Source of the DNA: a virus
Virus record (IMG/VR): IMGVR_UViG_3300048011_000030
Location: 1-58,131 of that record
Direction: 5' to 3' (one strand)
Length of the DNA stretch: 58,131 bases
Positions 1-58,131 of the stretch are shown piece by piece (the first letter of the stretch is position 1; every line of letters starts with the position of its first letter). Both the position numbers and the translations under genes were made by a program. The notes under the pieces were generated by a model, which made no database searches, had not been told where the DNA came from, and saw nothing but the letters and a program-made list of their open reading frames with translations.

Positions 1-127
1 AACTTAAATTTTTAGGGCGTCCCTCCGGGGACGTCCCGCCTAGTAGGAGATACGAACATGGCAATTAAAATCGCAGGTACTACCGTTATAGACGACAGCC
101 GGAATATTAATATACAAACGGTTCAAG
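1..127. repeat. 127-bp exact direct repeat, copy 1 (start of window)
   Basis: These bases are identical to 57357-57483. The repeat covers the intergenic hairpin, the ribosome binding site and the first 23 codons of a tail fibre gene. The identity begins at the very first base of the window and ends at base 127, after which the two copies diverge completely. A repeat of exactly 127 bases at a contig edge is what a de Bruijn assembler with k=127 leaves at a graph branch, so it may be a circularisation or strain-variant junction and not a biological terminal repeat. Confidence 0.95.
15..37 (+). promoter_or_regulatory. Stable stem-loop before the tail fibre gene
   Basis: GGGCGTCCC (15-23) pairs with GGGACGTCCC (28-37), with one bulged base, around a TCCG loop closed by C-G. 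This is the UNCG type of very stable RNA tetraloop. No T-run follows, so it is more likely an mRNA stabiliser or partial terminator than a full terminator. A ribosome binding site, AGGAGA, follows 8 bases before the ATG at 58. The same element is present at 57371-57393. Confidence 0.6.
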
Positions 128-3100
128 CAGAGGGCGGTAGCTTTACTTCAGGCGTAGATACAAACACTACTTCTGCATTAGTTGTCAATAAAGGAGATCA
201 AATCCTTGTTGATGATGGTAACTATTTACGTAACCTAATAAAGCAGGCCACAGGCAGTGACATTGAAATAGGTCAAACTGGTACATCCCTAATCACAGGT
301 ATTAACCTAATTCCAGGTAGTAGTGGCGGTAAAGCAAAGGTAACGGGCGTAGAGATTATTACTAAAGCAGGTAGTGGTCTAACTAAATCAAATGACACAC
401 TATCTCACGCTGACACATCTAGCCAAGCATCTGTGGACAACTCTAATGGCACAGTTATTCAAGATATTACTCTTGATGGGTATGGGCATATTACAAGTCT
501 GGCATCTGTTGACCTAGATAGCCGTTTTGTGAATATCACTGGCGATACTATGACGGGTGATTTGACTATTTCTTCTGCATCTCCTGAGATCAAACTAGTA
601 GATACTAATGGTTTTACTGATTCTGATGACAGAATGATCTTCCGTGCAGCCGATAACAATCTGCTGTGGCAGTGGTTTGATAACAGCGCCTCTTCCACCA
701 CTACATTGATGACACTTAACAATGTAGGTCAGCTTACTTTAGGCTCTAACACAGTATTTCACGATGGCTACCACCCCAATGCTGACGACGCAGATACTCT
801 GGACGGACAACACGGGAGTTACTATACAGGCTATACTGATACAGCTATTGCTAACTTGGTAGACAGTTCTCCTGGCACTCTAAACACTTTAAACGAGTTA
901 GCCGCAGCATTAAATGATGATGCTAACTTCTCTACTACTATAACTGATAGTATTGCGCTTAAACTACCACTAGCTGGCGGTACTATGACAGGTGACTTGA
1001 ATATGGGTGACAACAATGTCGTTGACATTGGTAAACTTAACTTCAACAACCACGAAGGTACTGACTACGGCGTAACTGGCGATGTTATGTTTGACGAGAA
1101 CTTTTATGGTGACACAGAGTATGGTTCTAATACCATCTGGTCTGGTGGTGAAGGTGGCGGTCTAGCTGTTCGTAACGAAGACGGTTGGGGTCGTATTATC
1201 ACTGACCGTAATATGCCATGGCTCACCGCGACCTTTCATGGTCTAAAGGTAGGCTCTAATACAGCCTTCCACGATGGCTACCACCCCAACGCAGACAAAT
1301 GGACTACCTCTAGAACACTGTCACTCTCTGGTGATGCTTCTGGCAGTGTAAGCTGGGATGGTTCAGCCAATGCTACTCTGAGTGTTACGGTTGCTGACAA
1401 CAGTCATGATCACGAATGGATTAACAGGGATAGCCCTAGTGACACGCCTGACTACGCACTTCAATATCTAAACACAAATGGTGTAACAACAGACAGCCCA
1501 ACAACAGACTGGTACAATATTATTCGTATGGGGCATGGTAACCCAAACACGTATTTTAACAATACCTTAGCTATGGCGATGACGGGTTCTAATGTCGGGG
1601 CTTTGTATGGTAGAACCAGAAGTAATGGCTCGGCAGGTTCTTGGAACCGTTTCTTTGCTGACAACTACCACCCTAATGCTGACAAGTGGACTACCGCTAG
1701 AACGCATACGGTGACACTGACGGGCGACGTCACAGGCACGGCGTCTCAGAGCGTTGACGGCACAGGTAACAAAACGTGGTCAATCAGCACAAACGTAGGT
1801 GACGCTGATACCGTTGATGGATACCATGGCAGTCGTTTCTTCCGTAGGCAGACAAAAACTAATGCTACAGTAGGTGCTGGCTGGATGACAGTTGCGACCT
1901 GTACCAGTGGTCGCCATTCAGGCGAGGTTATTGTTACAGACGCAGACAGTGGCGACCACGCCTATATCCGTATTGCTTGGATGCGGTCTTATGTAGACAG
2001 CAACTTCACAGTTATAAACACAGGTGGTCACGCAAACCGCATTACAGGTGCAAGGGTTCTATACCAGACATCTGATAATACATATGGCGTGAAGCTCTTA
2101 CAGGTCTATGTCACCACATCCTCTAACTATGAGGTAAATGTGTATGAGCTTGGCGATATTGCAGACTATGGTGTTCCAACAGCGGTTACTCCTGTAATTG
2201 AGAATTCCAAAACAGGCTATGCGGTGCATGGAAATGAACTCCTAGACCTAGATACTTACGGGTTCTCTGCTGAAGAAGGTGTCCAAGCTGGAGGTTTGAT
2301 AAGATCGGGATCGGGGTTTAAGGTAGGCTCCGACGATGTTTGGCACCAAGGAAACGATGGTTCAGGCTCAGGCTTAGATGCTGACCTGTTGGATGGTGTG
2401 CAGGGTAGTAGCTACCTACGAAGTGATGCAAGTGATAGCCACTCAGGTACTTTGACCCTTGATGTTGTTCAAGTTGGTAACGAGCTTAGACTGCCTAATA
2501 ATACAAGTTTAACAGATGTAAGTTTAACAGGTACATCTGACCAAGACACAGGCTTTAACTGGTCTGGCTCTAATGCTGTTAACTATGTTTCAGGGGGTGT
2601 GTTAAAGTACAACTTAAACGATGTATGGCACTCAGATAATGACGGTTCAGGCTCCGGCCTAGATGCTGATCTGCTGGATGGTGTACAGGGTAGTAGTTAC
2701 TTACGTAGTGATGCTAGTGACACCTTTACTACACTTTCGGGCACACAGCTTAACCTTGGCTCACAGGTACAGTTACAGGAAAGTACTGACCGTGCAGACT
2801 TACTACAGATCACATCGTCAACTTCTGGATGGGCTGGCTTGCAGATACGCAATAGCTCAAACGAGGGCCGCTGGTCATTTATGACTGATGGCGCAACGGC
2901 TGGTTTTTATGATGATGAAAACAACGAATGGGCTGTGCAGATGGCGGAGAACGGTGGAGTTACGCTCTACCACAATAATGTCGCTAACTTCACCACAGGT
3001 GCGACCTACATGGAAATGGCTCGCAACCTAGACATGAATAACTATGACATCCGCGGCGTAGATCAAATCTTCCACCACGGTGACACAAATACATACATGC

Positions 3101-4299
3101 AGTTCCACGCAGCAGACCAGTGGCGAGTTGTAACTGGTGGTTCAGAACGCTTAGAAGTAAACAACTCACAGATTACTTCTACTGAGCCTATTCATGCACC
3201 TAGCTTTCATGGTAGTGGCTCTAGTTTAACAGGTGTCGTGTTAAATTCTGGCGACACTATGACTGGGCCTCTAGTCATTGATACAGACAACAACTCTGGT
3301 GGCGGCTTACGGCTTACGGTAAACCAAACAAGCCCTAACCAAGACTTTTACTTTGCTCAAGAAATAGTTACTAACCTTACGGGCTCAACTGCTACCACTG
3401 GTGACAGAGAGCAAGGAGGTATATATCTAGACCTCAACAGTACAGCTACAGGTGGTGATATTAGCAATGAACACCGTGTTTATGGTGCTTATCTTGACGT
3501 ATATTCTACTGGCGATGCTGATTTAGTGTGTGGCGTTTACGCTCCTACTTACGCTGCACCAACCGAAGGAACTACTGGTCAGGTTATGGGTGGTTACTTT
3601 CTTGCATCAGACTACGGTGGTGCAGGTAATGTTACTTGGGTGAGAGGAATTGACGTAAGGGCACAGGCTGATAACAGCGGTTCTTCCCCTGCTATTGTGG
3701 AAGGTGGAAATTTTGAAGTCAGGGTCCTTAGTGACGCTGATAGTGTAGGTCAAATTTATGGCGTTAAAAGCAAGATTAAGTTTGATAGTGGAGGGGGGAC
3801 AAAACAATCCACCAGCAACCCCAGTTATGCCTTTCATGCTAGATACGAAAACAGCACTGGAGTATCACAAGGGAATAATAGTTACTTGTACTACGGCTCA
3901 GACTCCGGCGTGAGAAGTCCAAATGCTTACGGGGTTTTTATTTCAGGTGATTTAGATAACTACTTTGGGGGTAAAGTAACTGCGAATAGCTTTGTTGGTG
4001 ATGGCTCTGCTTTAACTAATTTGCCTTCAGGCTCAACAACCTACGGTGCTGTCGGGACTTATGCCTATCTTTGGAGAGACAATGCAGGAACAGTGCTTGG
4101 TTCAACACACGCTGGATCAACTTTGTTTTATGCTGTAACTAATGATGATAATACCACTGGCGCGGCAGCTAATGCCTATAAGGGGACTGGGATAGTACGT
4201 TCTTCTATTAGCCCCTCTGGCACTTGGCAAGCTATGGGTAGTGCGGGAACATACTCTACAGCTTACGGGCAAGCAACACTATATGTGAGGATATCATAA
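58..4299 (+). CDS. Long tail fibre protein (1413 aa)
   Basis: A very long, Gly/Ser/Thr/Asn/Asp-rich protein with short repeated beta-type modules, typical of a trimeric phage tail fibre that contacts the host surface. The motif FHDGYHPNAD or a close variant occurs several times. A module with GSGSGLDADLLDGVQG occurs twice (about 2350-2425 and 2645-2720), and SGDTMTG-type motifs recur. No intramolecular chaperone or enzymatic domain is evident. The start has AGGAGA 8 bases upstream. The stop overlaps the next start (TAATG), which links it to the fibre assembly gene. The first 23 residues are identical to those of the incomplete gene at 57414. This may be the receptor-binding protein and is probably fast-evolving. 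Confidence 0.85.
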   Translation: MAIKIAGTTVIDDSRNINIQTVQAEGGSFTSGVDTNTTSALVVNKGDQILVDDGNYLRNLIKQATGSDIEIGQTGTSLITGINLIPGSSGGKAKVTGVEIITKAGSGLTKSNDTLSHADTSSQASVDNSNGTVIQDITLDGYGHITSLASVDLDSRFVNITGDTMTGDLTISSASPEIKLVDTNGFTDSDDRMIFRAADNNLLWQWFDNSASSTTTLMTLNNVGQLTLGSNTVFHDGYHPNADDADTLDGQHGSYYTGYTDTAIANLVDSSPGTLNTLNELAAALNDDANFSTTITDSIALKLPLAGGTMTGDLNMGDNNVVDIGKLNFNNHEGTDYGVTGDVMFDENFYGDTEYGSNTIWSGGEGGGLAVRNEDGWGRIITDRNMPWLTATFHGLKVGSNTAFHDGYHPNADKWTTSRTLSLSGDASGSVSWDGSANATLSVTVADNSHDHEWINRDSPSDTPDYALQYLNTNGVTTDSPTTDWYNIIRMGHGNPNTYFNNTLAMAMTGSNVGALYGRTRSNGSAGSWNRFFADNYHPNADKWTTARTHTVTLTGDVTGTASQSVDGTGNKTWSISTNVGDADTVDGYHGSRFFRRQTKTNATVGAGWMTVATCTSGRHSGEVIVTDADSGDHAYIRIAWMRSYVDSNFTVINTGGHANRITGARVLYQTSDNTYGVKLLQVYVTTSSNYEVNVYELGDIADYGVPTAVTPVIENSKTGYAVHGNELLDLDTYGFSAEEGVQAGGLIRSGSGFKVGSDDVWHQGNDGSGSGLDADLLDGVQGSSYLRSDASDSHSGTLTLDVVQVGNELRLPNNTSLTDVSLTGTSDQDTGFNWSGSNAVNYVSGGVLKYNLNDVWHSDNDGSGSGLDADLLDGVQGSSYLRSDASDTFTTLSGTQLNLGSQVQLQESTDRADLLQITSSTSGWAGLQIRNSSNEGRWSFMTDGATAGFYDDENNEWAVQMAENGGVTLYHNNVANFTTGATYMEMARNLDMNNYDIRGVDQIFHHGDTNTYMQFHAADQWRVVTGGSERLEVNNSQITSTEPIHAPSFHGSGSSLTGVVLNSGDTMTGPLVIDTDNNSGGGLRLTVNQTSPNQDFYFAQEIVTNLTGSTATTGDREQGGIYLDLNSTATGGDISNEHRVYGAYLDVYSTGDADLVCGVYAPTYAAPTEGTTGQVMGGYFLASDYGGAGNVTWVRGIDVRAQADNSGSSPAIVEGGNFEVRVLSDADSVGQIYGVKSKIKFDSGGGTKQSTSNPSYAFHARYENSTGVSQGNNSYLYYGSDSGVRSPNAYGVFISGDLDNYFGGKVTANSFVGDGSALTNLPSGSTTYGAVGTYAYLWRDNAGTVLGSTHAGSTLFYAVTNDDNTTGAAANAYKGTGIVRSSISPSGTWQAMGSAGTYSTAYGQATLYVRIS

Positions 4300-4709
4300 T
4301 GAGCATTACAATAATAGAAGCCCGCAATGCGGCATCACTTCAAGCTGACAACCTTCGTATGGATGTAGAGATTAACCACCCACAGCACGGCTGGATACCC
4401 TACACACTAGACTCCGCTGATACGGACACAACCATAGACAACGATGCAGTCATGGCTCTGATTGGTACAGACTTTACAGCATATGTTGCACCTACTCAAG
4501 CAGAGTTAGATGCAGCGGCAGCGGCAGATGTCCGTGCTGATCGAGATGGACGCCTACTTGAAGTAGATGCTATTGCAGGTAATGCACTTCGCTGGGCTGC
4601 ACTTGATGCTGACACACAGGCAGCATGGGCCACATACCGCCAAGCACTCTTAGATGTACCACAGCAAGAGGGCTTTCCTGACAATGTTACGTGGCCTACT
4701 AAACCTTAA
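4299..4709 (+). CDS. Tail fibre assembly protein (136 aa)
   Basis: A short protein directly after the tail fibre gene, overlapping it by one base (TAATG). The C-terminal half has an Ala-rich helical stretch, then WATYRQALLDVPQQ and a closing segment with NVTWPTKP. That ending is the usual signature of caudoviral tail fibre assembly chaperones. Such proteins help fold or attach fibres and are not normally kept in the virion. Order and spacing support co-expression with the 1413-residue fibre. Confidence 0.75.
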   Translation: MSITIIEARNAASLQADNLRMDVEINHPQHGWIPYTLDSADTDTTIDNDAVMALIGTDFTAYVAPTQAELDAAAAADVRADRDGRLLEVDAIAGNALRWAALDADTQAAWATYRQALLDVPQQEGFPDNVTWPTKP

Positions 4710-4739
4710 TAACTTAAACAAAACTTAAAGGAGAATAAA

Positions 4740-4961
4740 ATGGAAAAGAAACAAACACAATCCATTACTATTAACGACAAAGAATACACTGCAGACCAAC
4801 TTACAGATAAGCAAAAGGTGCTGATTAGCCACTTATCTGATTTAGATCGTAAGATTGGTTCTACTAAATTTAACTTAGATCAACTACAAGTTGGTCGAGA
4901 TACCTTTGCTAAAATGCTGGAGGAAGATTTAGAGGTTCCTGAAGCAGAAGAGGCGGCATAG
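4740..4961 (+). CDS. Small DUF6447-like protein (73 aa)
   Basis: A small acidic protein with a short beta N terminus (SITINDKEYTADQL) followed by a predicted helix rich in Leu, Asp and Lys. This arrangement matches small DUF6447-type proteins common in marine phages near tail genes. The function is unknown. A strong ribosome binding site, AAAGGAG, stands before the start. It lies downstream of the fibre assembly gene and before a phage promoter, so it is probably the last gene of the fibre transcript. The family match is from memory of its pattern. Confidence 0.65.
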   Translation: MEKKQTQSITINDKEYTADQLTDKQKVLISHLSDLDRKIGSTKFNLDQLQVGRDTFAKMLEEDLEVPEAEEAA

Positions 4962-4987
4962 TCCCCTATTAAAAGGAGAAACCTAAA

Positions 4988-5041
4988 ATGGCTATTCAAA
5001 ATAACATTGCAGAATGCAACAGCCGTTTAACAATTCTCTAA
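4988..5041 (+). CDS. Possible 17-aa micro-gene
   Basis: A 17-codon frame preceded by a good ribosome binding site (AAAGGAG, 10 bases upstream) in the gap after the DUF6447-like gene. Its stop lies inside the phage promoter at 5033. The translation (MAIQNNIAECNSRLTIL) has no recognisable motif. It may be a genuine micro-protein, a translated leader or a chance frame. Confidence 0.3.
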   Translation: MAIQNNIAECNSRLTIL

Positions 5042-5055
5042 GTTCCTTATAGGGG
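5033..5055 (+). promoter_or_regulatory. Putative phage RNA polymerase promoter upstream of nrdJ
   Basis: Contains ATTCTCTAAGTTCCTTATAG followed by GGG, one of five copies of a motif with an invariant TAAGTTCCTTATAG core. The end of the motif resembles the T7 promoter initiation region (CTATAGGG), so G5052 is the predicted first transcribed base. It drives the ribonucleotide reductase and probably the tail genes downstream. The use by the T7-like polymerase encoded at 26845-29139 is inferred. Confidence 0.75.
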
Positions 5056-5071
5056 GGTCTTCGGATCCCCC
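5052..5071 (+). promoter_or_regulatory. 5'-end stem-loop with TTCG loop
   Basis: GGGGGGTC (5052-5059) pairs with GATCCCCC (5064-5071) around a TTCG tetraloop, the most stable RNA tetraloop class. The stem begins at the predicted first base of the transcript from the promoter at 5033, so nrdJ mRNA would carry a capped-like 5' hairpin that could protect it from degradation. It could also attenuate incoming transcripts, but no T-run follows directly. Confidence 0.6.
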
Positions 5072-5111
5072 TTCGGATTAATTAACACATAACAATATCA
5101 CGAGGATATAC

Positions 5112-6866
5112 ATGCGCAACATTACTTATGAGGGTCCATCTACTCCCTTGTCTCAAGAATTAGATGAAATGAAGTACAGACAAAAGGGAGAGACCTTTGA
5201 TGGTAAAGTTAAGCGCATTGCACGATCATTGTGTGATAGTGTGGAACACCAATGGATTCTAGAAGACATCATTGGTCTACAACGATTCCTTCCAGCTGGT
5301 AGAGTACAGTCTGCGATGGGTGCAGGTAAGCTTGTTACTGCTTACAACTGTTTTGTATCAGGTGATATTAAAGATAGTATGGATTCTATTATGGATCGTG
5401 CTAAAGAAGCAGCAGAAACAATGCGAAGAGGAGGTGGTATAGGTTATGATTTCTCTAAAGTACGCCCTAGAGGTACTCAAATCAAGTCATTGGAGAGCCA
5501 AGCCAGTGGGCCTATCTCTTTTATGTCTATCTTTGACGCAGTATGTCAAACAATTAGTAGTTCCGGTCATAGGCGCGGGGCGCAAATGGGCGTACTCCGT
5601 ATTGACCATCCGGATATCGTTGATTTCATTACTGCTAAACGTAATTCTGATAAGCTTACTGGTTTCAACATATCGCTAGGAATTACTGATAAGTTTATGG
5701 AAGCTCTTACTAAAGAAGATGACAGTTTTGATTTAGTGTTTGATGGCATTGTACATGAAACAGTCTCTGCAAAGGAAATCTGGGATTTAGCAATGGAGTC
5801 TACATGGGATTGGGCTGAGCCTGGTGTTCTATTTGTTGATCGTATTCAAGAGATGAATAATCTATACTACTGTGAGGACATTAGTGCTACTAACCCATGT
5901 GGTGAACAGCCCTTGCCTCCTTATGGTGCTTGCTTACTAGGCTCTTTTAACTGCACTAAATACACAATTAAAAATAAAAATGGTAAATACACATTCGACT
6001 TTGCTCAATTTAAAGAAGACATCCCACACGTTGTTCGTGCTATGGATAACGTTGTTGATCGTACTATCTACCCACTTCGGGAGCAAGAAGATGAAGCAAA
6101 GAATAAGCGGAGAATGGGACTCGGCGTTACAGGTCTTGCTAATGCAGGCGAGATGCTTGGATTCGAGTATGGTTCTAAGCCGTTCCTGCGATGGATGGAA
6201 AAAGTCTTTGCATGTCTTAGAGACAACACTTACTACGCCTCAGCAAAACTTGCAGAAGAAAAAGGAGCATTCCCCCTGTATCGTGAAGATTACCTAAAGG
6301 GTAACTTCATCCGTACACTTCCAGCATTTGTACAAAAGGAGATCCGAAAGCATGGTATTAGGAACAGTCACCTCACGTCTATTGCACCTACTGGGACAAT
6401 CTCCCTTGTGGCGGATAACATCAGTGGTGGAATCGAACCAGTCTTTTCACATTCATATGAGCGTACCATCCAGACTTTTGACGGTCCACGCTATGAGGAC
6501 GTTAAGGACTACGCCTTTGCACGAGGAGTTGAAGGACGAAAGGCAGATGACATTTCAGTTCATGAACACTTAGCTGTCCTTACTTTGGCTCAACACTACG
6601 TTGACAGTGCTTGCTCTAAAACTTGTAATGTGGGAGATGATGTTAGTTACGATGATTTCAAACGTGTTTACGAAACGGCATGGAAAGAGGGAGCCAAGGG
6701 CTGTACCACATTTAGGATCTCTGGAAAACGCTACGGAATCTTCAATGAGACCGTGGAAAAAGAAACGGAGATTGAGGGCCAGGTTGAAGGTATTACAGAG
6801 ACGGACGGAGCGAAAGCGGAGGCGTGTTTTTTTGACCCGAATACTGGGCAGCGCGAGTGCTCGTGA
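5112..6866 (+). CDS. nrdJ: Adenosylcobalamin-dependent (class II) ribonucleotide reductase
   Basis: Converts ribonucleotides to deoxyribonucleotides for phage DNA synthesis using vitamin B12. The alpha-barrel active site is visible: NPCGE with N261, C263 and E265, and the redox cysteine pair C80 (AYNCFVSG) and C281 (GSFNCTKY). A C-terminal cysteine pair (C572 and C583), which would shuttle electrons from thioredoxin or glutaredoxin, is present but spaced 10 residues apart, wider than usual. At 584 residues it is a compact member. A GAGGA site precedes the ATG. It has its own phage promoter at 5033 and lies among late tail genes, far from the other nucleotide genes (glutaredoxin, ThyX, MazG) in the leftward operon. 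Confidence 0.92.
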   Translation: MRNITYEGPSTPLSQELDEMKYRQKGETFDGKVKRIARSLCDSVEHQWILEDIIGLQRFLPAGRVQSAMGAGKLVTAYNCFVSGDIKDSMDSIMDRAKEAAETMRRGGGIGYDFSKVRPRGTQIKSLESQASGPISFMSIFDAVCQTISSSGHRRGAQMGVLRIDHPDIVDFITAKRNSDKLTGFNISLGITDKFMEALTKEDDSFDLVFDGIVHETVSAKEIWDLAMESTWDWAEPGVLFVDRIQEMNNLYYCEDISATNPCGEQPLPPYGACLLGSFNCTKYTIKNKNGKYTFDFAQFKEDIPHVVRAMDNVVDRTIYPLREQEDEAKNKRRMGLGVTGLANAGEMLGFEYGSKPFLRWMEKVFACLRDNTYYASAKLAEEKGAFPLYREDYLKGNFIRTLPAFVQKEIRKHGIRNSHLTSIAPTGTISLVADNISGGIEPVFSHSYERTIQTFDGPRYEDVKDYAFARGVEGRKADDISVHEHLAVLTLAQHYVDSACSKTCNVGDDVSYDDFKRVYETAWKEGAKGCTTFRISGKRYGIFNETVEKETEIEGQVEGITETDGAKAEACFFDPNTGQRECS

Positions 6867-6893
6867 GTTATTAGATTAAAATAGGAGGTAGCG

Positions 6894-8648
6894 ATGCCAC
6901 AACAGATTATACCAATCACAGATCTAGCATCAGCAGGTCTTGTGCAAGATACTCCTGCAGTATCGCTACCACCTAATGTCTTTTCAGATGTACACAATGT
7001 TCGCTTTAGGGATGGGGCTGTTAAACGGTTCCCATCTGATGTTGATAAGCTAACATCACTTACAAACGTTGTGTACGTTGCGTACTGGCCTTCAACACTT
7101 GGAGATCGATATGTAGTTATTACAGACAACGGATCTAATACAGTGTTCACAGTATACAACGATAGTTTCTCTGTTGTATCAGCACAAGGTGGTACTAACA
7201 CTGGGGTAACTGGTGGTAGCTGGCAACATACTTTGTTTAATGGTGGTTATCATATTATTTTTAACAATGGTAACTCTACACCTGTCTTCTTGCAAGATGA
7301 TCTGGTGGGTGTTACACCTTTACCTGGATGGGATTCCTATGCAGTTGAGGAAGAGATTACTTCTTTTGAACATGATGGTTCTTCTGGATCTACTGAGATC
7401 AAGAACACGGTGCTGGTAAATCCAGGTGCGGGTAATACCATCTCAATTAAGATAACTGCAATACCTCGGAACACATCTAGCCCAATCCACACAGAGACAG
7501 TCACTGTTGACTCATCCGGAGTTGTATCACCAGATGCCACATTGGCAGACATTGGAACGATTACACAAGTTGACTTTAGTAATAATAAATTCTTCTTTGT
7601 ACCTGAGACATCTTCAGGAGGTTCTGTATATAAGGTGTCTGTAACTACTATCCCAATCACAGCAGTAACAGCAGGTGTTGTAAGGTCTTATGGAAACCTC
7701 TTAGTTGCAGGTAACCTAAAAGAAACGGGTGGTCGTACACTCACAGGCACCATACGTACCTCTGATGTTGCTGGGCCAGGCGCTATCCCTGAGAATTGGA
7801 ACCCCTTTAAGAATGGTGCTAATACAGCAGATGAGTTTATCTTAGCAGCTACAGGAACTATTAAAGACATGGAGGAGCTTCAAGGAGTTCTCTATGTATA
7901 CACAGATTCTTCTATACACTCTGTTCAACAAACCGGATCACCTTTCGTACCATTCCAAATATCACCAGTAACAAATAACTATGGAGTTAATAATACAGGT
8001 GGTGTTATAGAGGTAGATGGTAAACATATTGTATATGGAAGTAACGACTGCTACGTATTCAGTGGTCATCCAGGATCCATATCTTCAATAGCTGATGGTA
8101 GGGTTAGGGGTTTCTTTAGGAATAACACTAATATTAAAGCTGTTAGATTTAATAAATATGATGAGGTTTGGTTCTGGTCTAGTACAACTGTGTATGTGTG
8201 GAACTATCGTAATAATGTGTGGACTAAACGAGACTTACCTACAGGTACAAACTCGATGTCTGCTATTAGAGGAGACCTTCTTCTTTCAGCACCTACAAAA
8301 CTTGTTGGTGTAGATGGAAGTTCATTCCTATCAGGGGCTGTACTAGAGCGTAAACGCATGGCAATCACCCCTGAGTTTGACACTGAGAGTGTGTCGGGTA
8401 TGGTTCTGTTGTTTGATGGATCTTCTAAAGCCAATATTAAGTATGATGGTGTAGATAAGGTTGGGGAGGCAGTTGATTTTACAACTAGACCTGCAATACC
8501 TTTTGATACTACCCTAGATTATAAAGCGGATGTTAGGATTAATGGTCGCTTCTTAAACTACAGGATTGAAAGCCAGTCAAATGAAACAACCCTTGATTGG
8601 AATCTCACAGGATATCAAATTCAAATAAGTAAGGGAGGTCGCAGGTAA
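6894..8648 (+). CDS. Probable tail nozzle (tail tubular protein B-like), 584 aa
   Basis: The N terminus holds NVFSDVHNVRFRDGAVKRF, which resembles the start of phage nozzle or tail tubular B-like proteins, where an N-terminal arm precedes a beta-propeller. The rest is beta-rich with repeated blade-like stretches (for example YVAYWPSTLGDRYVVITDNG and YGSNDCYVFSGHPGS) ending in a beta-sandwich-like segment. It would form the distal tail tube below the adaptor of 52739-53632. A strong ribosome binding site, AGGAGG, precedes the ATG. The stop overlaps the next start (TAATG). Assignment rests on pattern and context, so a different tail hub role is possible. Confidence 0.55.
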   Translation: MPQQIIPITDLASAGLVQDTPAVSLPPNVFSDVHNVRFRDGAVKRFPSDVDKLTSLTNVVYVAYWPSTLGDRYVVITDNGSNTVFTVYNDSFSVVSAQGGTNTGVTGGSWQHTLFNGGYHIIFNNGNSTPVFLQDDLVGVTPLPGWDSYAVEEEITSFEHDGSSGSTEIKNTVLVNPGAGNTISIKITAIPRNTSSPIHTETVTVDSSGVVSPDATLADIGTITQVDFSNNKFFFVPETSSGGSVYKVSVTTIPITAVTAGVVRSYGNLLVAGNLKETGGRTLTGTIRTSDVAGPGAIPENWNPFKNGANTADEFILAATGTIKDMEELQGVLYVYTDSSIHSVQQTGSPFVPFQISPVTNNYGVNNTGGVIEVDGKHIVYGSNDCYVFSGHPGSISSIADGRVRGFFRNNTNIKAVRFNKYDEVWFWSSTTVYVWNYRNNVWTKRDLPTGTNSMSAIRGDLLLSAPTKLVGVDGSSFLSGAVLERKRMAITPEFDTESVSGMVLLFDGSSKANIKYDGVDKVGEAVDFTTRPAIPFDTTLDYKADVRINGRFLNYRIESQSNETTLDWNLTGYQIQISKGGRR

Positions 8649-9436
8649 TGTCTATTATCCGACCACCCTATACCGGAGACCCTGTTTTAGATTCTTGGAC
8701 AAATCAAATAACACAAGCCCTTAATATGGGACTCCTACCAGGTGTTAACGCAAGTGGTGCTGGAATAGGTGGGGGTACGGGGTCAGATGGTGCCAATGGT
8801 AACATAACTCTGTTCCTATACAAACGCACAGCTAATGACACTGTTCCACCTGCACCTAGTTTTGTGACTTATGACTACTCCAACTTGGATAATGTAACAA
8901 TAACATCAAACAATGGGTGGACAGGGACTGTACCATCAGATGATGCTAGTTACCTATGGGTTACATTTAGGTATGTGTCTGAAACTGAGGGTACCATAAC
9001 GAGTTCGAACACTTGGCAAACCCCCGTTATTCTTTCACAGGATGGGTCTTCTGCTTTGAGTGTATATATAACTACAGACTCTGGGACGGTGTTTAAGAAT
9101 GCCGTGGGTACCCCAAAGACATTAACGGCTAATGTTAATCTTGGAGGTGTAACCCCAACAACTACAGACTATAATGGTTATGATTATGACTGGACCTATG
9201 AAGGTAATACTGTTTGCCTAACCAATGATGGGAGTAGGACTGTCCTCTCAACCAACGGGGTACCTAATACCGTAAATGGTTCTGGAGTTTGTGCCATTGG
9301 TGTTCCAGCAAACTCAGAAGATTCGGCTGCGATAACTGCATCTTTAAACACAGGAGTTCTTAGACGTATTGTGCTAGGTCCTGAAGATGTAACAACACAA
9401 GTGAGATTAGCAGTTTCTGTTAAAATAGGAGAATAA
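8648..9436 (+). CDS. Modular tail protein I (262 aa)
   Basis: First of three consecutive related tail proteins. The N terminus (SIIRPPYTGDPVLDSWTNQ) looks like an attachment segment, followed by a Gly-rich linker at about residues 35-50. The C-terminal 120 residues (from SVYITTDSGTVFKN to GPEDVTTQVRLAVSV) form an immunoglobulin-like beta module. A second copy of that module closes the next protein. The start is coupled to the nozzle gene by TAATG. Probably a virion tail or short-fibre component; the exact role is unknown. Confidence 0.6.
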   Translation: MSIIRPPYTGDPVLDSWTNQITQALNMGLLPGVNASGAGIGGGTGSDGANGNITLFLYKRTANDTVPPAPSFVTYDYSNLDNVTITSNNGWTGTVPSDDASYLWVTFRYVSETEGTITSSNTWQTPVILSQDGSSALSVYITTDSGTVFKNAVGTPKTLTANVNLGGVTPTTTDYNGYDYDWTYEGNTVCLTNDGSRTVLSTNGVPNTVNGSGVCAIGVPANSEDSAAITASLNTGVLRRIVLGPEDVTTQVRLAVSVKIGE

Positions 9437-9437
9437 T

Positions 9438-10571
9438 ATGGCACGGGTAGCCTCTAATGAAATTACAATTACCGATATTTCGGACGGTACAAATCCGATT
9501 ACAGCGTTCACAACTAACGCTAACCACACATTTGCTGCTGCAGCTAATGGTACAGTCTCTAACGTTGCTGGATTTACATCTACCTTAATTGTATTCGTAG
9601 GTCAAACACAAGCATCTTATGTCGCTACCATTGGCTCTACACCAGAAACATTTTCAATCACCAATATAGCATACGTAGGTTCATCAACTGGTTGGGGAAC
9701 CCCATCTAACGCTAGTGGTACTATTACAATCCCATCTGTTTCAGCAACAGCTGCAATCAGTGTCACTCTACGACTAACATTCAGTGTGGTGCCAACATCT
9801 ACAACAACACCTGTTACTGGTCTTACACAAGACATTACTTTGTCTGTTGTTAAAGAGGGGGCTGGTGGTCAGGTTATTGAGATTGTACCATCATCACAGA
9901 CCTTCTTTGCGAACTCCTCAGGTACTCTTAATGCTAGTCAGACTAATATTATTTTAGGTATTGAGTCTCAAGGTACTACAGGTAACATCACATTAGCTAC
10001 TTCTATTAACGGTGCTGCATTCACTACTCAAACCACTACGAGCACTGCTCAAGGTGGTATTGCTTTCTACGATGCTGATACTTCGGGTACTGTGGAAACT
10101 ACAGGTACCTTCCCAGTTACACAGAATGGTATTGCTCGCCTAGCTATTGCTCAAACAAACTTAGGGAATACTGGTAATACGTTAACAGTTAAAGTAACAG
10201 GTGCCACTGGTGGTTCAGATGCTCTTACTGTGTTTAAAGTTCAAGAAGGTGCGGCTGGTACTGGTGCTATTATCGTGTCGGTAACATCTAGTGACGGGAC
10301 GGTGTTTAAAAATAGTGCAGGAACAGCTAAGACTTTGACAGCTAATGTAACAGATGTTGATACGGGTGTTGCACCAAGCACAAGTATAACATACACCTGG
10401 ACACGGGCCAATGGTGCAGCAGTTCGTGTTACCTCCATATCTGATCGGACTGTCATTTCAACAGGTGGTGTGTTAGCCTCAGGTACAGGGTTTCCAGACA
10501 TTATTGTAGGGGTTGAAGATGTAACAACACAAGAGCGTTTCGGAGTCTCTGTAAGTGTGGCTGATACTTAA
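9438..10571 (+). CDS. Modular tail protein II (377 aa)
   Basis: The N terminus, MARVASNEITITDISDG, is closely related to that of the next protein (MPRVGSDEITIKNISDG). The middle is Thr/Ser-rich beta sequence with repeats of the type seen in bacterial Ig-like adhesins. The C terminus (VTSSDGTVFKN to VGVEDVTTQERFGVSVS) repeats the C-terminal module of the preceding protein. The three genes therefore look like products of duplication and module shuffling. GGAGA precedes the ATG. Function as a tail or adhesin component is inferred from composition and position. Confidence 0.6.
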   Translation: MARVASNEITITDISDGTNPITAFTTNANHTFAAAANGTVSNVAGFTSTLIVFVGQTQASYVATIGSTPETFSITNIAYVGSSTGWGTPSNASGTITIPSVSATAAISVTLRLTFSVVPTSTTTPVTGLTQDITLSVVKEGAGGQVIEIVPSSQTFFANSSGTLNASQTNIILGIESQGTTGNITLATSINGAAFTTQTTTSTAQGGIAFYDADTSGTVETTGTFPVTQNGIARLAIAQTNLGNTGNTLTVKVTGATGGSDALTVFKVQEGAAGTGAIIVSVTSSDGTVFKNSAGTAKTLTANVTDVDTGVAPSTSITYTWTRANGAAVRVTSISDRTVISTGGVLASGTGFPDIIVGVEDVTTQERFGVSVSVADT

Positions 10572-10583
10572 AGGAGAATAGAG

Positions 10584-12551
10584 ATGCCAAGAGTAGGATC
10601 AGATGAAATTACAATAAAAAACATATCAGATGGAGACAGCTCTCGTACAGTCTATCTGTTTCAAAATGGAACAAGCTCCCCAACAGTTCCTTTAAACACT
10701 GCTGGGTTTGTAGCCTCTACGGGTGTTGCTAGTAGTACGGGATCTTGGAGCACAATAGCCACTGTCCCAGCATCTGGTAGTACACTATACGTAGCATCTC
10801 TTAGTCTTCGTCAACCTAACTCTACAGGAAACTGGGAAGCTGTTGGTAATTGGGAAGCTAATCCAGCCTCCTCGTCTGGAGCTGATGGATCCCCAGCCCC
10901 AAGGTTTGTTTCACGTAGGTTATATGCATCCTCATCTACAGGCACACCTGGTGCTCCATCTGCTATACTAACATGGTCAACCCTTGCACTGTCTAGTATC
11001 ACAGCGGGTACCCCATCAGCAACTTGGTCGGAGACTGCACCAACAGCCATTGCTACTTCAACCACTTTGGTTTACTTTTCTGATTTACTATTCATAGATG
11101 TAACAGGTATAGCTACAACCAGTTCAAATACTGGGAGTACTCCTAAAGAGGGGATATCTTTTTCAGGTCTTGTGACATTCAACAATGGTGACTTTGCACT
11201 TGATGGCACTGCTATAACATCTATAGATGGTGGTAATATAACTACAGGTTCTATTTCAGGTAGTCCTTCTGGGGTGAATCCCCCATCAGCAGGTAGTGCA
11301 CCCACTGGTACTGAAGATGGCACGTCTTTAAACCTAACTGATGGTAACCTTACTATTGGTAACTCAACTAACTATATCAGTTGGGATGGAACGGAACTTA
11401 AAGTCCAAGGGGAGATTGTCAACATTACAAAACCGCACTTAGCTGGACTAGCAGGTGATTGGTTTTGTATCTCAGATTCTGTCACAGACCTAAGCACTGT
11501 CCTTCCGTTTAGTCTGAACGGGGCAGGTCTGTACCGTATGATAATGGTAGGTGGTGGTGGTGGTGCCAGTGCAGCCTATACAAACATTTTTGGATACACA
11601 GGTGTTTCTGGTGGTGGTGCAGGTGCGTTAGCAGTGTGGACATTTTTATGGGATGGAACATCAGCTATCCGCGTGATCATCGGTCATGGTGGCGCTGGTA
11701 AAATTCACACCACAGATGGAAGTGGTGGTGGAGCATCGTCTTTTATGGTAGATGGGGTAACCACGATCACTACAAATGGTGGGGGTGGTGGAGACCGAGG
11801 TAACTCTATCTTTACACCAGGTGGTTCTGGCGGAGATATTACATTTGCTACAAACCCTGACCCTGGTATGTATGACCTTGAAACACGGTATGGTGGTCGT
11901 GGTGGTAACTCGACTGTCTCTGGTGGTAGTACATCTCATGGTAGTGCTGGCGGTGGTGGAGTTAACTTCCTTGGAGTTGGCAATAGTACAGACCAGACTA
12001 TTACCCGTGGCGGTGACTTTGTTGCTGCAACCTCAAATGATTCCGCTGCGACTGCTGGTGGTGGTCCACAAGGTAAAGGTGGTGACATCAACAGCATGGG
12101 AGGTGACCGCTTTTCAACCGCAGCTGTATACGCTGCTCAAGGTATTTCAAGTTCGTCTAGTACTAACGCAGGTATAACATATGAGCCTGTTGTGGGGAAT
12201 GTAATTTCTACCCCCTATTTAGGTTCTGCACCACTTGGTCGTACTTATGCTGGAACCACTGATGACGAAGGTGTTGGACCCCCCGATGCTTCAGGTATTT
12301 TGGGTGGTGGTGGTGTTCTCAGAACTACTGTGGGGACTACTGCGCAAGCGTCTAAGCAATCACATGCGCCTAGCGGTTTTTTATTTGGTGGTGGTGGTGG
12401 CGGATCAGCTGTTGCTCAGCTTGGTAATGAAGACCTTGCTGAAATAACAGGTGGTAATGGAGGAATCGGGGCTGGCGGCGGTGGTGGCTTCGGATTAACT
12501 TCACGTGGTGGTAATGGTGGTGGCGGAGCACTATTCGTACTCAGACTTTAG
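10584..12551 (+). CDS. Tail protein III with glycine-rich adhesin domain (655 aa)
   Basis: Residues 1-300 are Ser/Thr-rich beta sequence sharing its first 17 residues' pattern with modular protein II. From about residue 320 to the end the protein is dominated by GG and GGGG runs (for example GGGGGGSAVAQ and GAGGGGGFGL) and ends in GGGGALFVLRL. Such glycine-rich domains form polyglycine-II bundles at the tips of phage adhesins and often contact the receptor. This makes it a second candidate receptor-binding protein besides the long fibres. AAAGGAGAATAG precedes the ATG. Confidence 0.7.
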   Translation: MPRVGSDEITIKNISDGDSSRTVYLFQNGTSSPTVPLNTAGFVASTGVASSTGSWSTIATVPASGSTLYVASLSLRQPNSTGNWEAVGNWEANPASSSGADGSPAPRFVSRRLYASSSTGTPGAPSAILTWSTLALSSITAGTPSATWSETAPTAIATSTTLVYFSDLLFIDVTGIATTSSNTGSTPKEGISFSGLVTFNNGDFALDGTAITSIDGGNITTGSISGSPSGVNPPSAGSAPTGTEDGTSLNLTDGNLTIGNSTNYISWDGTELKVQGEIVNITKPHLAGLAGDWFCISDSVTDLSTVLPFSLNGAGLYRMIMVGGGGGASAAYTNIFGYTGVSGGGAGALAVWTFLWDGTSAIRVIIGHGGAGKIHTTDGSGGGASSFMVDGVTTITTNGGGGGDRGNSIFTPGGSGGDITFATNPDPGMYDLETRYGGRGGNSTVSGGSTSHGSAGGGGVNFLGVGNSTDQTITRGGDFVAATSNDSAATAGGGPQGKGGDINSMGGDRFSTAAVYAAQGISSSSSTNAGITYEPVVGNVISTPYLGSAPLGRTYAGTTDDEGVGPPDASGILGGGGVLRTTVGTTAQASKQSHAPSGFLFGGGGGGSAVAQLGNEDLAEITGGNGGIGAGGGGGFGLTSRGGNGGGGALFVLRL

Positions 12552-36051: not shown

Positions 36052-36074
36052 TTTCTTTAAGTTCCTTATAGAGA
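36052..36074 (+). promoter_or_regulatory. Putative phage promoter for the small terminase gene
   Basis: Contains TTTCTTTAAGTTCCTTATAG followed by AGA, with the invariant TAAGTTCCTTATAG core shared by four other sites. G36071 is the predicted start of RNA. It points away from the surrounding leftward genes and toward the single + strand gene at 36146. A 7-bp hairpin (36074-36091) begins 4 bases into the predicted transcript. Confidence 0.75.
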
Positions 36075-36568: not shown

Positions 36569-36627
36569 GTGCGCTTTGTCGGTTATCTAAAAAAACAAGT
36601 AAGTGCGCTTTGTCGGTTATCTAAAAA
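36569..36627. repeat. Tandem 25-bp repeat after the small terminase gene
   Basis: GTGCGCTTTGTCGG followed by TTATCTAAAAA occurs exactly twice, at 36569-36593 and 36603-36627, a 34-bp period with a 9-bp spacer. A shortened relative (GCTTTGTCGG) is at 39369-39378, at the edge of the structured region. Possible protein-binding or priming sites; no coding role is visible. Confidence 0.8.
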
Positions 36628-36920: not shown

Positions 36921-37171
36921 TACATTTTACTTACGCCAAGGACACCACCGTTCTCCCACTCTGCATAGAGACCATGATCATTAAGAATATCATTGATTTT
37001 ATGGTTAACACCGAAGTCATCTAGTGATGCATTGTTTTCGGCATAGTAGTCAGCCCATACAGTTTCATAGTTTTCCTCTGCTGAGATTACAAAGTCATCT
37101 TCACCATAGTCTTTTACAGGTACCCCGATCTTACGAAGCTTGTTGAATGCTGTGCGATATTCTCTTTTCAT
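36920..37171 (-). CDS. Hypothetical protein (83 aa)
   Basis: The ATG at 37171 overlaps the previous stop (TGATG); a GTG one codon earlier is possible. The N terminus is basic (MKREYRTAFNKLRKIG), the rest acidic with aromatic residues (YETVWADYYAENNAS). No family is recognised. Part of a tightly coupled run. Confidence 0.6.
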   Translation of the reverse strand: MKREYRTAFNKLRKIGVPVKDYGEDDFVISAEENYETVWADYYAENNASLDDFGVNHKINDILNDHGLYAEWENGGVLGVSKM

Positions 37172-37350
37172 CACGCCATCTCCTCTGTCTCTTCTACACC
37201 CATTTGCTGAATAAACTCATCAATAATTTCACTGTCAGCTACATGATAACACTGTGTCAAGTCATGTGTGACGTAATCAATCAGACCTTCGATGTCTAAT
37301 GATTCTACATACTTATCAATAGCTGCTTCTAATTTGTCTGCTTTATACAT
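37171..37350 (-). CDS. Small acidic protein (59 aa)
   Basis: Begins MYKADKLEAAIDKYVESLD and ends GVEETEEMA. Acidic and helical. Its stop overlaps the next gene's start (TGATG), supporting its reality. No family is recognised. A candidate small early effector only by its position. Confidence 0.55.
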   Translation of the reverse strand: MYKADKLEAAIDKYVESLDIEGLIDYVTHDLTQCYHVADSEIIDEFIQQMGVEETEEMA

Positions 37351-41837: not shown

Positions 41838-42348
41838 GTAGAGTATCGATAGATCTATAAGAACCCAAGAGATACACATAGCTTGGTCTTATCTGAGAGT
41901 ATGCTGAGAGATACTGAGAGAGTATTGAGAGATGCTGAGAGATCTATAAGAGACTGAGAGATCTTATAGTATAGGTATATATATAGTAACCTAAGGGAGG
42001 GACTGGATAGCTTCTCCCTATAAGGAACTTAGAGAATGTTACACCATCCCCCCACAGTCTCTCACAGAATCCCACACAATCCCACAGTCCCGCTAGATCC
42101 TATGCCACAAGAGACTCTCAGAGAGCCTCACAGAACCTATAGAGGGCTCAGAGTACTCACAGTACCTAAGAGATAGACACCTACCTGAGAGAGCCTCTGA
42201 GAGATCTAGGGGGGTACTAAAAAACTATGAGGGTACCTGATAAAAAAAGTACTTATTAGGCTCTCTTTCTCAAAGACCCTCTATAAACCTCACAGGGGTA
42301 CCTCAATCTCTCACAGAACCCCCACATAATCTAAAAATAATATAGATA
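41838..42348. other. Divergent intergenic region with GAGA-type repeats, possible origin
   Basis: No supported gene lies between 41738 and 42394. The left part (41893-41971) has about seven imperfect copies of CTGAGAGAT or TGAGAGAK. An AT-rich run (41965-41988, TATATATATAG) follows, then short inverted repeats such as GAGTACTC and AGTACCT. CTCACAGAA occurs three times (near 42060, 42128 and 42310). Divergent promoters flank it at 42013 and 42349. This is a candidate replication origin and transcription control region; this is inference only. Confidence 0.5.
42013..42037 (-). promoter_or_regulatory. Putative leftward phage promoter
   Basis: On the - strand it reads ATTCTCTAAGTTCCTTATAG then GGAGA, so its end, TATAGGGAGA, is identical to the T7 promoter start region. 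G42018 is the predicted first base. The only one of five copies that points left. It would allow the T7-like polymerase to sustain early gene transcription, including its own gene. The predicted RNA begins with GGGAG, which can pair with CTCCC 14 bases later. Confidence 0.8.
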
Positions 42349-42371
42349 TATTTCTAAGTTCCTTATAGGGA
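42349..42371 (+). promoter_or_regulatory. Putative rightward phage promoter for packaging genes
   Basis: Contains TTTCTAAGTTCCTTATAG followed by GGA. Predicted first base G42368. It stands 27 bases before the large terminase ATG and starts the rightward late block. Confidence 0.78.
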
Positions 42372-44164: not shown

Positions 44165-44187
44165 ATTCTCTAAGTTCCTTATAGAGA
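44165..44187 (+). promoter_or_regulatory. Putative phage promoter for the head gene block
   Basis: Contains ATTCTCTAAGTTCCTTATAG followed by AGA. Predicted first base G44184. A short hairpin, GAAT pairing with ATTC, starts 2 bases in. It precedes the 88-aa gene, the portal and the head genes. Confidence 0.78.
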
Positions 44188-52738: not shown

Positions 52739-53632
52739 ATGGCAACATACGTAGAATTTGTAGGATCTGGTGACTTCACTGGTGATAACGCAGGGTTGAT
52801 TAGATCCTGGGCAAACAGAGATGTTTCTGTATTGTCTAACTCAGTGGTGACGCGGTGTTTTAATTACGCAGCAGATAAAGCTTACAGAACTCTACGTGTG
52901 CCACCACTAGAAATTACTAGGCTTTATGATGTAAATGGTACGCAAGAAGAAATTGATGCAGCAGGAGCATCAGGAGATTTACCAGATATTGGGCCAAGTG
53001 CTTATCAAGGTGGCAATGTACTCACTATGCCAACCCCCAAAGATTTAATTGATATTGTATTTATACGTAATGCTAACACAACAATTAAAAACCAAGGCAT
53101 TGTATATAACGAAAAAGTAGACGTTAGAACCTTTAATGATGGTTATAGTCAAACTAAAGATTTCAACTTTTATACCAGAATAGGAGACGAAATAAAACTT
53201 CACGGTAAGTTTGCTAGAGGAGATGTACTAGAAATTCATTACTACAGACGTTTACCCGCACTAGATGCTACTTACTCTGCTACTTACAATAACTGGAAAG
53301 CAGGACTAGGTACTTTAGATATCAGTGGCGTAGCAACAACTTACTCCGCTGCCGTAGATAAAACAGAAGCTTCTTTTGACACAAGGCTGGCAGAAGATTC
53401 TTCTTATTGGGTAGGTAATGAAGCAGCTCATTGGTTAAGAGATGAAAATGAAAGGATCGTTTTGTTTGGGGCACTGTTAGAGGTATCTATATATTTAAAT
53501 GATAATGAAGAAATACAAAAGTATCAAATATTATTTGATCAAGAGATATCAGAATTAAACAAAGAAGAGCTGATTCGTAAAACAAAAGGCGGCAACTTAG
53601 CAATGTCATTCGCATACGATAACTTGCTGTAG
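52739..53632 (+). CDS. Head-tail adaptor protein (tail tubular A / SU10-adaptor-like, 297 aa)
   Basis: Connects portal to tail nozzle. The middle and end, EIHYYRRLPALDATY, WVGNEAAHWLRDENERIV and LEVSIYLNDNEEIQKYQ, fit the adaptor pattern of T7 gp11 and SU10-type proteins: a helical core with an embedded beta domain. AAGGAG precedes the ATG. It is in the expected order after the capsid gene. Confidence 0.72.
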   Translation: MATYVEFVGSGDFTGDNAGLIRSWANRDVSVLSNSVVTRCFNYAADKAYRTLRVPPLEITRLYDVNGTQEEIDAAGASGDLPDIGPSAYQGGNVLTMPTPKDLIDIVFIRNANTTIKNQGIVYNEKVDVRTFNDGYSQTKDFNFYTRIGDEIKLHGKFARGDVLEIHYYRRLPALDATYSATYNNWKAGLGTLDISGVATTYSAAVDKTEASFDTRLAEDSSYWVGNEAAHWLRDENERIVLFGALLEVSIYLNDNEEIQKYQILFDQEISELNKEELIRKTKGGNLAMSFAYDNLL

Positions 53633-53643
53633 AGGAGTGTACG

Positions 53644-56600: not shown

Positions 56601-57363
56601 CACATACTTTACGTCTAATGGATATTATTCAACAACTGCACCTTCTGGTTGGAAATATGGGTCAGCGACTACCGCAACGCAGATGTATATGAACGCATCA
56701 GGTGGGGAGTTTGTGTTTAGGAATGCCACCTCTGGTACGACTAATGCTTCAATCTCTTGGTCAGAAGCCATGCGCATCGACAGCAGCGGTAACTTGCTGG
56801 TGGGTAAGACGAGTGCTAACAATACAACTGCTGGAACAACAATATACGGTTCGGCCCCAGGCAATATGTCTTTAGTAAGAGATAGTGGTAGTTCTATTGT
56901 AATGAACCGTCTAAACTCTGACGGCGACATTGCAGTGTTCCGCAAAAACGGCACCACTGTGGGGAGTATTGGGTCTGAGGTTGCTGATACAACTTTACAG
57001 ACCGATCTCTATATTCACGGACGCAGCACTGTTGGTGGTTCAAGCGCAAACAACTCTCGCCTTTGGTTATTAGGCGGCGACAGTGGAATTGTGTTAGATG
57101 GTCATACAAACGCCATCTTACCTACAGACGAAAACAGCTACGAAGATGCTCGTACAGATATTGGCTCTGCGGATTACCGCTTCAAAGACCTCTACCTGTC
57201 TGGCACAGTCAATGCTAACTCAGTAGACCTCGGCAGCTTTGTCGTAACAGAAACAAATGGACACTTGTACTTTTCAGTAGGAGGTGTCAACAAAATGAAA
57301 CTAGATTCCTCTGGAAACCTACAGGTAGTAGGGAACGTTGACTCTAACGCAACCATAACTTAA
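53644..57363 (+). CDS. Alanine-rich tail fibre (1239 aa)
   Basis: The N terminus has a paired motif (EPVDNGNVFDLAEPIDDGN). Then come some 500 residues of Ala/Ser/Thr/Asn/Glu repeats of the kind ATSETNAATS, a trimeric coiled-coil shaft. Two copies of a domain with FDDRYLGxKxSDPT, at about 54190-54345 and 55240-55395, interrupt and end this shaft. The C-terminal 600 residues are beta modules with MRIDSSGN-type repeats and a YHDGSNSYIKDNGTGN segment. The end is SNATIT. It is followed by the repeated leader of the next fibre gene. GAGGAG precedes the ATG. Confidence 0.85.
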   Translation: MGFRDSDNIIEPVDNGNVFDLAEPIDDGNVFDTDTGATAISSTSEAAASAFAAANAADGVTLSETNAAASAAAAAISEANASTSENNSSTSESNAATSETNAATSAANASTSETNSASSALAAASSESNAATSATASANSATASANSASLASTSESNAATSESNASSFAQSALSSLTSVTNIFDSFDDRYLGSKTSDPTLDNDGNTLIIGTIYWNSTEGELKFYNGTIWEAPSAAAATSATNAATSESNAATSATASATSATASETSNVASNTAKLAAQAAQTAAELAETNAETAETNASTQATNASTSANNAATSESNAATSATASQTSATASQVSRLAAETAETNAETAETNAAASETAASTSETNAATSASTASTGATTATTKASEAATSATNAATSETNAETAETNAETAETNASIYATNAATSATNSATSATSSDTARAASVVAKVAAETAETNAETAEANALASKNAAATSATNSANSAAEASTSENNAAVSAATATTKASESSTSATAAAASATSASASKDAALAALDSFDDRYLGQKSSDPTVDNDGDALVAGALYFNTTDSVMKVYEGSVWVSAYTSLSEALLISQNLSDLNDIATARTNLGVEIGTDVQAYSSVLAATTASYTTAINTKINNIETNADVTDVTNVTAAGALMDSEVTNLDQVKAFNSSDYVSVSGDSITGNLSFGDNDKAIFGAGSDLQIYHDGSNSYIKDNGTGNLRINAGELTLTNAADNQNRIVTTSDGTVYLYNGGSIKLATTSTGVDITGTLTSDGLTVDGSGVEVISVNSTQNGAQINFDSASTSVDWSIGVSNSADGDFLIYQSGSGSGDINLYTGGLKRQEINRNGDISFYEATGTTPKFFWDADAESLGIGVSSISNIVGTGYPQLQVGGSVSGIIDITSGSNLGIRMSADGNLPTIASRTQGWPLRFSTTPTGGSATERMRIDSSGNVGIGVAPYSWSNLTALQLERASVSGGDPDTYFTSNGYYSTTAPSGWKYGSATTATQMYMNASGGEFVFRNATSGTTNASISWSEAMRIDSSGNLLVGKTSANNTTAGTTIYGSAPGNMSLVRDSGSSIVMNRLNSDGDIAVFRKNGTTVGSIGSEVADTTLQTDLYIHGRSTVGGSSANNSRLWLLGGDSGIVLDGHTNAILPTDENSYEDARTDIGSADYRFKDLYLSGTVNANSVDLGSFVVTETNGHLYFSVGGVNKMKLDSSGNLQVVGNVDSNATIT

Positions 57364-57483
57364 ATTTTTAGGGCGTCCCTCCGGGGACGTCCCGCCTAGT
57401 AGGAGATACGAACATGGCAATTAAAATCGCAGGTACTACCGTTATAGACGACAGCCGGAATATTAATATACAAACGGTTCAAG
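57357..57483. repeat. 127-bp exact direct repeat, copy 2
   Basis: Identical to bases 1-127, after which sequence differs. It holds the stem-loop at 57371-57393, the ribosome binding site and the first codons of the gene at 57414. See copy 1 for the interpretation as a circularisation or variant junction. Confidence 0.95.
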
Positions 57484-58131
57484 TTGGAACCAACACCGTT
57501 ACTACAGCTTCTGACATTGCTCTCAGTGCTAACGTAGCAATCAACGCAGAAAACAGTTTGTCATTTGGCATGACTGATGGCACATCTGGGTATTACAGAT
57601 GGATGTTTGGCAATAACTCTAAAACCGGCGGCACAGCTGGCGGCGTTGAAAAGATGCGCCTTGATAAGGATGGCAATTTAACACTAGCCGGCACAGTAGA
57701 CGGAGTAAATATACAGACCCTTAATACTACAGCTGGTGCCGCCTTACCTAAAGCTGGCGGTACTATGAGTGGTAACTTAACAGTTAGCAAGACAAACCCT
57801 CTCATAAGGCTGTATGATAGCAACACTGGCACTGACACATTCCCTGCGATTGAATTTGACACTGCTAACACCCAAGGCGTAGCTATAGAGTTTAACGAGT
57901 TTGACACTGAACTTCCTGTTTCTGGTTACGGTCTTGTAGTCAAAGGAAGTAGTACAAACACACAATTCCCTGGCACAGGTACGTTATCTTTTAATGTCTT
58001 AGGTAATATCTATGCGGGTGCTACATCTTTAGGTTCTCTTAACAAAGTATTCCACGATGGCTACCACCCCAATGCTGACGACGCAGACACTCTGGACGGA
58101 CAACACGGGAGTTACTATACAGGCTATACTG
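57414..58131 (+). CDS. Tail fibre, incomplete at window end (alternative version of the gene at 58)
   Basis: Starts with the same 23 residues as the gene at 58, then departs completely for about 200 residues (SDIALSANVAINAENSL and onward) before returning to the same GYHPNADDADTLDGQ-type module. The last 44 bases equal 798-841, and only scattered changes precede them from about 58047. It is therefore either an alternative allele of that gene or a tandem paralog. The gene runs off the window. Confidence 0.8.
   Translation, partial: MAIKIAGTTVIDDSRNINIQTVQVGTNTVTTASDIALSANVAINAENSLSFGMTDGTSGYYRWMFGNNSKTGGTAGGVEKMRLDKDGNLTLAGTVDGVNIQTLNTTAGAALPKAGGTMSGNLTVSKTNPLIRLYDSNTGTDTFPAIEFDTANTQGVAIEFNEFDTELPVSGYGLVVKGSSTNTQFPGTGTLSFNVLGNIYAGATSLGSLNKVFHDGYHPNADDADTLDGQHGSYYTGYT

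Follow-up and report, generated by a model that had tools for sequence, protein, structure and literature searches.

A 127-base repeat in a marine podovirus contig, best read as an assembly seam, and two probable alleles of a tail-fibre gene

One test for a circular virus genome asks for the same sequence at both ends of a contig. The contig studied here (58,131 nt, analysed over its whole length and referred to below as the window) begins with a sequence that returns near the opposite end, at the start of a tail-fibre gene, and is followed there by further coding DNA. This raises two questions: does the map close at the repeat, and where does the DNA beyond the second copy come from? The window is a metagenomic virus contig that encodes a single-subunit RNA polymerase, a primase/helicase, a family A polymerase, portal, capsid and terminase. 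Its nearest isolate by terminase (62% identical) is Roseobacter phage CRP-7 (MK613349), which is short-tailed and has a genome of 58,106 bp (PMC6918029). The order of replication and structural genes is common to the two, the same adaptor and upstream tail protein lie ahead of the ribonucleotide reductase (RNR) gene in each, and the window is a CRP-7-type marine podovirus. CRP-7 is unlike the window in that another tail protein (gp48) occupies the position of the fibre, and in that its RNR gene is split around a group I intron, whereas that of the window is uninterrupted. The intron (Rfam RF00028, 79 bits) is located at 36986–37196 on the minus strand of CRP-7 (L082) with an ORF alongside, and the CRP-7 record annotates the interrupted gene as two proteins.

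Comparison of the window with itself confirmed an exact match, claimed in the original prediction, between bases 1–127 and 57357–57483 (127 of 127 identical). The first base past the repeat differs, being C at 128 and T at 57484, and the left limit of the repeat is the first base of the record and no biological border. A 40-base core is present in two copies in the window and in none of 100 shuffles (with up to 3 mismatches), so the repeat is not due to chance. Within it lie the last 7 coding bases of the ORF at 53644–57363, then a hairpin and a ribosome-binding site, and finally the opening 70 coding bases of the fibre gene (23 codons and one base). The hairpin has a 9-bp stem and is mildly unusual (z −1.9); a tRNA was looked for and none was found. 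If the map closes at the repeat, the unit is 57,356 bp in length, and 648 bases (57484–58131) run from the second copy up to the contig end. The repeat, the fibre gene and its neighbours are listed in table 1.

Table 1. Coordinates of the repeat, the two versions of the fibre gene and the flanking genes in the window.
Feature	Position	Strand	Basis or content
First repeat copy	1..127	+	Contig start; read as branch k-mer (last k-mer common to two fibre alleles)
Tail-fibre gene, allele A, complete, 1413 aa	58..4299	+	ORF; PHROG tail-fibre families, E down to 1.6e-40; Pfam Phage_T4_gp36
Allele A shaft module differing from B	128..736	+	DNA similarity to B not above shuffles
Distal shaft start, A and B alike again	737..838	+	94.3% over 105 columns versus 58027–58131
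Tail-fibre assembly chaperone	4299..4709	+	PF16778, 2e-18; phrog_4628, 1.2e-30
Ribonucleotide reductase (RNR)	5112..6866	+	PF02867, 1.5e-108; left flank in closure test; contiguous with tail genes in L103 and G001
Conserved adaptor-like gene	52739..53632	+	phrog_2941, 4.5e-14; right flank in closure test
Upstream large tail protein, 1239 aa	53644..57363	+	PHROG tail-fibre families; N-terminus matches CRP-7 gp51; stop codon inside repeat
Second repeat copy	57357..57483	+	End of ORF 53644–57363, hairpin, ribosome-binding site, first 23 fibre codons
Tail-fibre gene, allele B, open at contig end, 239 codons seen	57414..58130	+	ORF
Allele B shaft module	57484..58026	+	Part 1 matches L074 and L076; part 2 matches L068–L073
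Allele B back in A-like sequence, then contig end	58027..58131	+	Alignment to 737–838

The length of the repeat is the highest k in the metaSPAdes command used by JGI (-k 33,55,77,99,127; PMC10434106), and the authors of CheckV state that end repeats of length k stem from circular templates (PMC8116208). The window is like the contigs that they describe in having an exact repeat of a standard k that starts at base 1, and in closing on itself; it is unlike them in that its second copy does not lie at the other contig end but precedes the 648-bp branch, and would be missed by a test that looks for repeats at both ends. When head and tail were compared in 17 other large contigs, exact end repeats of 127 bp were found in G001 and G015, and one of 55 bp in G004. 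In G002 (59,879 bp), as in the window, further DNA follows the second copy: its first 127 bases recur at 57728–57854 and give way to a branch of 2,025 bases, which aligns at 94.8% to the start of G002 itself and spans primase, exonuclease and genes next to them. G016 is a mirror image, in which the last 127 bases equal head positions 89–215 and the preceding 88 bases differ at 2 sites. G002 (L173, L174) and G016 (L203, L204) are two more circular-looking contigs with closure masked by a strain branch. The remaining 12 of the 17 contigs showed no seam within the stretches compared. L132 was rejected as a seam, its repeated last 127-mer being only 69 bases from its copy, which is a short-period repeat.

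The proposal that 127 is an assembly k-mer is therefore supported both by the JGI list and by the 127- and 55-bp seams of relatives. The most plausible reading of the repeat is a de Bruijn k-mer seam that a short-read assembler, presumably of this type, left in closing a circular map. In principle, a contig built from a de Bruijn graph can start at the last k-mer common to two haplotypes, and the repeat would then have the length k whatever the true length of the shared sequence. A different reading, with a linear virion genome that truly has a direct terminal repeat of 127 bases, would suit a short-tailed phage with a single-subunit RNA polymerase, some of which have terminal repeats of this order. 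It is scarcely credible here, given that 648 further bases of coding DNA lie past the repeat, that the repeat falls inside a gene, and that the seams of relatives are located elsewhere and have k-mer lengths.

Closure of the map can be judged from the tail block, which in CRP-7 extends from the capsid genes to the RNR gene and takes in two large tail proteins on the way. In the window this block is split, with its first half at the right end and its second half at the left end. L103 unites the genes of both ends in a single contig: it matches window 52739–53684 at 75.7% and, on the left side, the 6.5 kb at 4216–10646 at 95.4%, and the two segments follow each other as closure would predict. 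G001, a circular relative of 57,406 bp that has its own exact end repeat of 127 bp, aligns colinearly with the window to either side of the tail block, and the end genes of the window are adjacent in L103, G001 and CRP-7. The adaptor-like gene sits upstream of the tail block in these three and also in G002. The gene junction has a counterpart in L037, where the upstream protein ends NSNATIT-stop and the fibre start MAIKIAG comes directly after, as in the window. Gene order in L103, G001 and CRP-7, together with the junction in L037, supports the claimed closure, and the window would be a circularly closing assembly with a unit of 57,356 bp. In the close relative L103, a single ORF of 2580 aa (2259–10001) replaces the upstream tail protein and the fibre.

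Past the repeat, the fibre gene is present in two versions, allele A at the left end of the window and allele B at the right. The chance of 239 open codons in B is about 4e-8, and B is genuine coding sequence. Compared with A, allele B keeps the first 23 codons and has about 200 codons exchanged for about 180 unlike ones, and the two versions rejoin at residue 227 of A and residue 205 of B. At the DNA level, the similarity between 128–736 and 57484–58026 (local score 26) is within that of shuffles (mean 20, maximum 31), while at the protein level part of the two modules is homologous (32% over 75 aa). The alignment of the rejoined segments includes 3 mismatches and 3 gap columns, and the contig stops there. 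The original prediction had taken 57484–58131 for a variant of 128–841 that rejoins the same module. A second haplotype is likely, as argued below, and the rejoining is seen over the last 105 columns, and over those columns only, but the stretches before them are not close variants. The variation had also been placed exactly in the receptor-facing protein. The gene is indeed a tail-fibre gene, but the segment seen to differ is the N-proximal shaft (residues ~24–226 of A, ~24–204 of B) and not the tip; the C-terminal tip of B lies past the contig end.

Since the branch anatomy of the window is also found in G002 and G016, and since closure is supported, the tail at 57484–58131 is most likely a second allele, with two alleles at one locus. 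Quite probably, the window is the circular assembly of a CRP-7-type podovirus in which the repeat is the last k-mer before two fibre alleles, and the tail is allele B of a co-occurring sister genotype. The contig would start at the 127-mer with allele A, circle the genome once back to the same k-mer, and then exit along allele B of the sister genotype for 648 bases. Allele B would keep the first 23 codons (presumed to encode the virion-anchoring end), change the N-proximal shaft and return to the A-like distal shaft. A and B would then reside in different virions of one population, and the swap may affect host range. The first interpretation of this locus is upheld as to the k-mer, closure and a likely second haplotype, and not as to the receptor-facing wording.

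Three other origins of allele B have to be weighed. An earlier suggestion was a tandem pair of paralogous fibre genes in a single genome, in the order upstream protein, fibre B, fibre A, chaperone and RNR. Although in L023 and L037 the upstream protein is separated from RNR by several tail proteins and chaperones, a true repeat would need a length of exactly one k-mer, 127. The anchor motif MAIK..TTVIDDSRN, surveyed by permissive tblastn over an enlarged set of loci, is present in many phages, but among the fetched relatives no locus has two copies, and L103 has a single ORF at the block. The same anatomy is found in single-copy replication genes in G002, the most telling case; its branch is a second version of core replication genes, diverged to the degree seen between strains, and tandem paralogy cannot account for it. 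Tandem paralogues are disfavoured by the single anchor motif per locus and the single ORF of L103, and we hold them to be very unlikely.

Tail fibres are the classic target of switching systems, and a single genome might alternate between A and B, whether by inverting a segment, by exchanging a cassette or through a diversity-generating retroelement. However, the closed genome has no opposite-strand copy of either module and, apart from two 16-mers, no duplicate; the scanned proteins include neither a recombinase nor a reverse transcriptase; and the A and B modules differ throughout, not at adenine sites. Neither an invertible or cassette switch nor a diversity-generating retroelement was recognized in the closed genome and the proteins scanned, and the odds on such switching are extremely low.

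The main rival left is that B derives from a different co-occurring phage sharing a short stretch at the fibre start, and that the 127-mer led the assembler to join both, in which case the circle would still be real and B would be no sister genotype. That fibre modules are common to unrelated phages, and that the anchor is so widespread, would fit such an origin. The exact identity nonetheless holds over 127 bases that reach from the close of the upstream gene across the intergenic hairpin and the ribosome-binding site, B comes back to A-like DNA at 94% and in register, and G002, a checked twin of the window, has a branch that is plainly a sister strain. We regard a foreign phage as an unlikely source of B, and a sister genotype remains the preferred one.

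How might two sister genotypes come to differ in this segment? L211, an unrelated phage with different genes around its fibre, has the A module (window 127–561) in that fibre at 92% DNA identity, with homology from window base 127 onward; the A module thus appears to be a mobile shaft module. At 5814–6278, L211 carries the A module and then a segment resembling the upstream tail protein of the window. Part 1 of the B module is found in the fibre of L074 (73% DNA identity, with homology from 57483 on) and also matches L076, and part 2, which ends at FHDGYHPNAD, is found in L068–L073. Because the homologies to L211 and L074 begin at the A/B junction, other phages too have a module border here. 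As the modules are found in the fibres of unrelated phages from the same junction, the most likely origin of the swap is recombination in which phages exchanged modular segments of their fibres. An exact search of viral contigs with the 42-base fibre start, with near-identical records left out, gave no match. A more tentative idea, conceivable though somewhat doubtful, is that exchange takes place preferentially at the junction after codon 23, where varied shaft modules common with unrelated phages are placed behind a constant anchor and the distal shaft stays as it is. If this is true, sister phages in one sample would differ by one module and little else.

Several further features of the window were recorded. 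The sequence TTCTCTAAGTTCCTTATAGRG occurs in five copies, at 5034–5054 (+), 36053–36073 (+), 42016–42036 (−), 42350–42370 (+) and 44166–44186 (+), with 0–2 mismatches and with none in shuffles; most copies are upstream of genes. A 17-base core of TTCTCTAAGTTCCTTATAGRG is retained upstream of RNR in L020, L023, L036 and L103, and the sequence is a candidate promoter for the phage's own RNA polymerase. An exact 25-bp direct repeat is present at 36569–36593 and 36603–36627, 34 bases apart. Within the upstream tail protein, 53900–55130 contains many short imperfect repeats, which are rich in alanine, threonine and glutamate.

Metaviromic islands and variable host-recognition genes have been described in marine phages (Mizuno et al. 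2014, PMC3909814). The window is similar in that probable variation within a population would lie inside the tail-fibre gene; it differs in that the variation is deduced from the branch of one contig and not from read recruitment, and is limited to an N-proximal shaft module. Both k-mer seams and variable host-recognition genes are already known (PMC8116208, PMC3909814), and the window adds a clean new example of an ordinary kind, in which the module borders are sharply drawn. Six contigs carry a k-mer seam (the window, G001, G002, G004, G015 and G016), and in three of the six the seam is hidden behind a strain branch, so these three would escape tests that demand the repeat at each end. The analysis offers a reading of this easily missed anatomy, a circular viral genome with the second seam copy behind a short strain branch. 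The branch marks, without recourse to reads, one site where sister phages would differ, the tail-fibre shaft module, and the case is a clean addition to what is known of modular variation in the tail fibres of marine phages.
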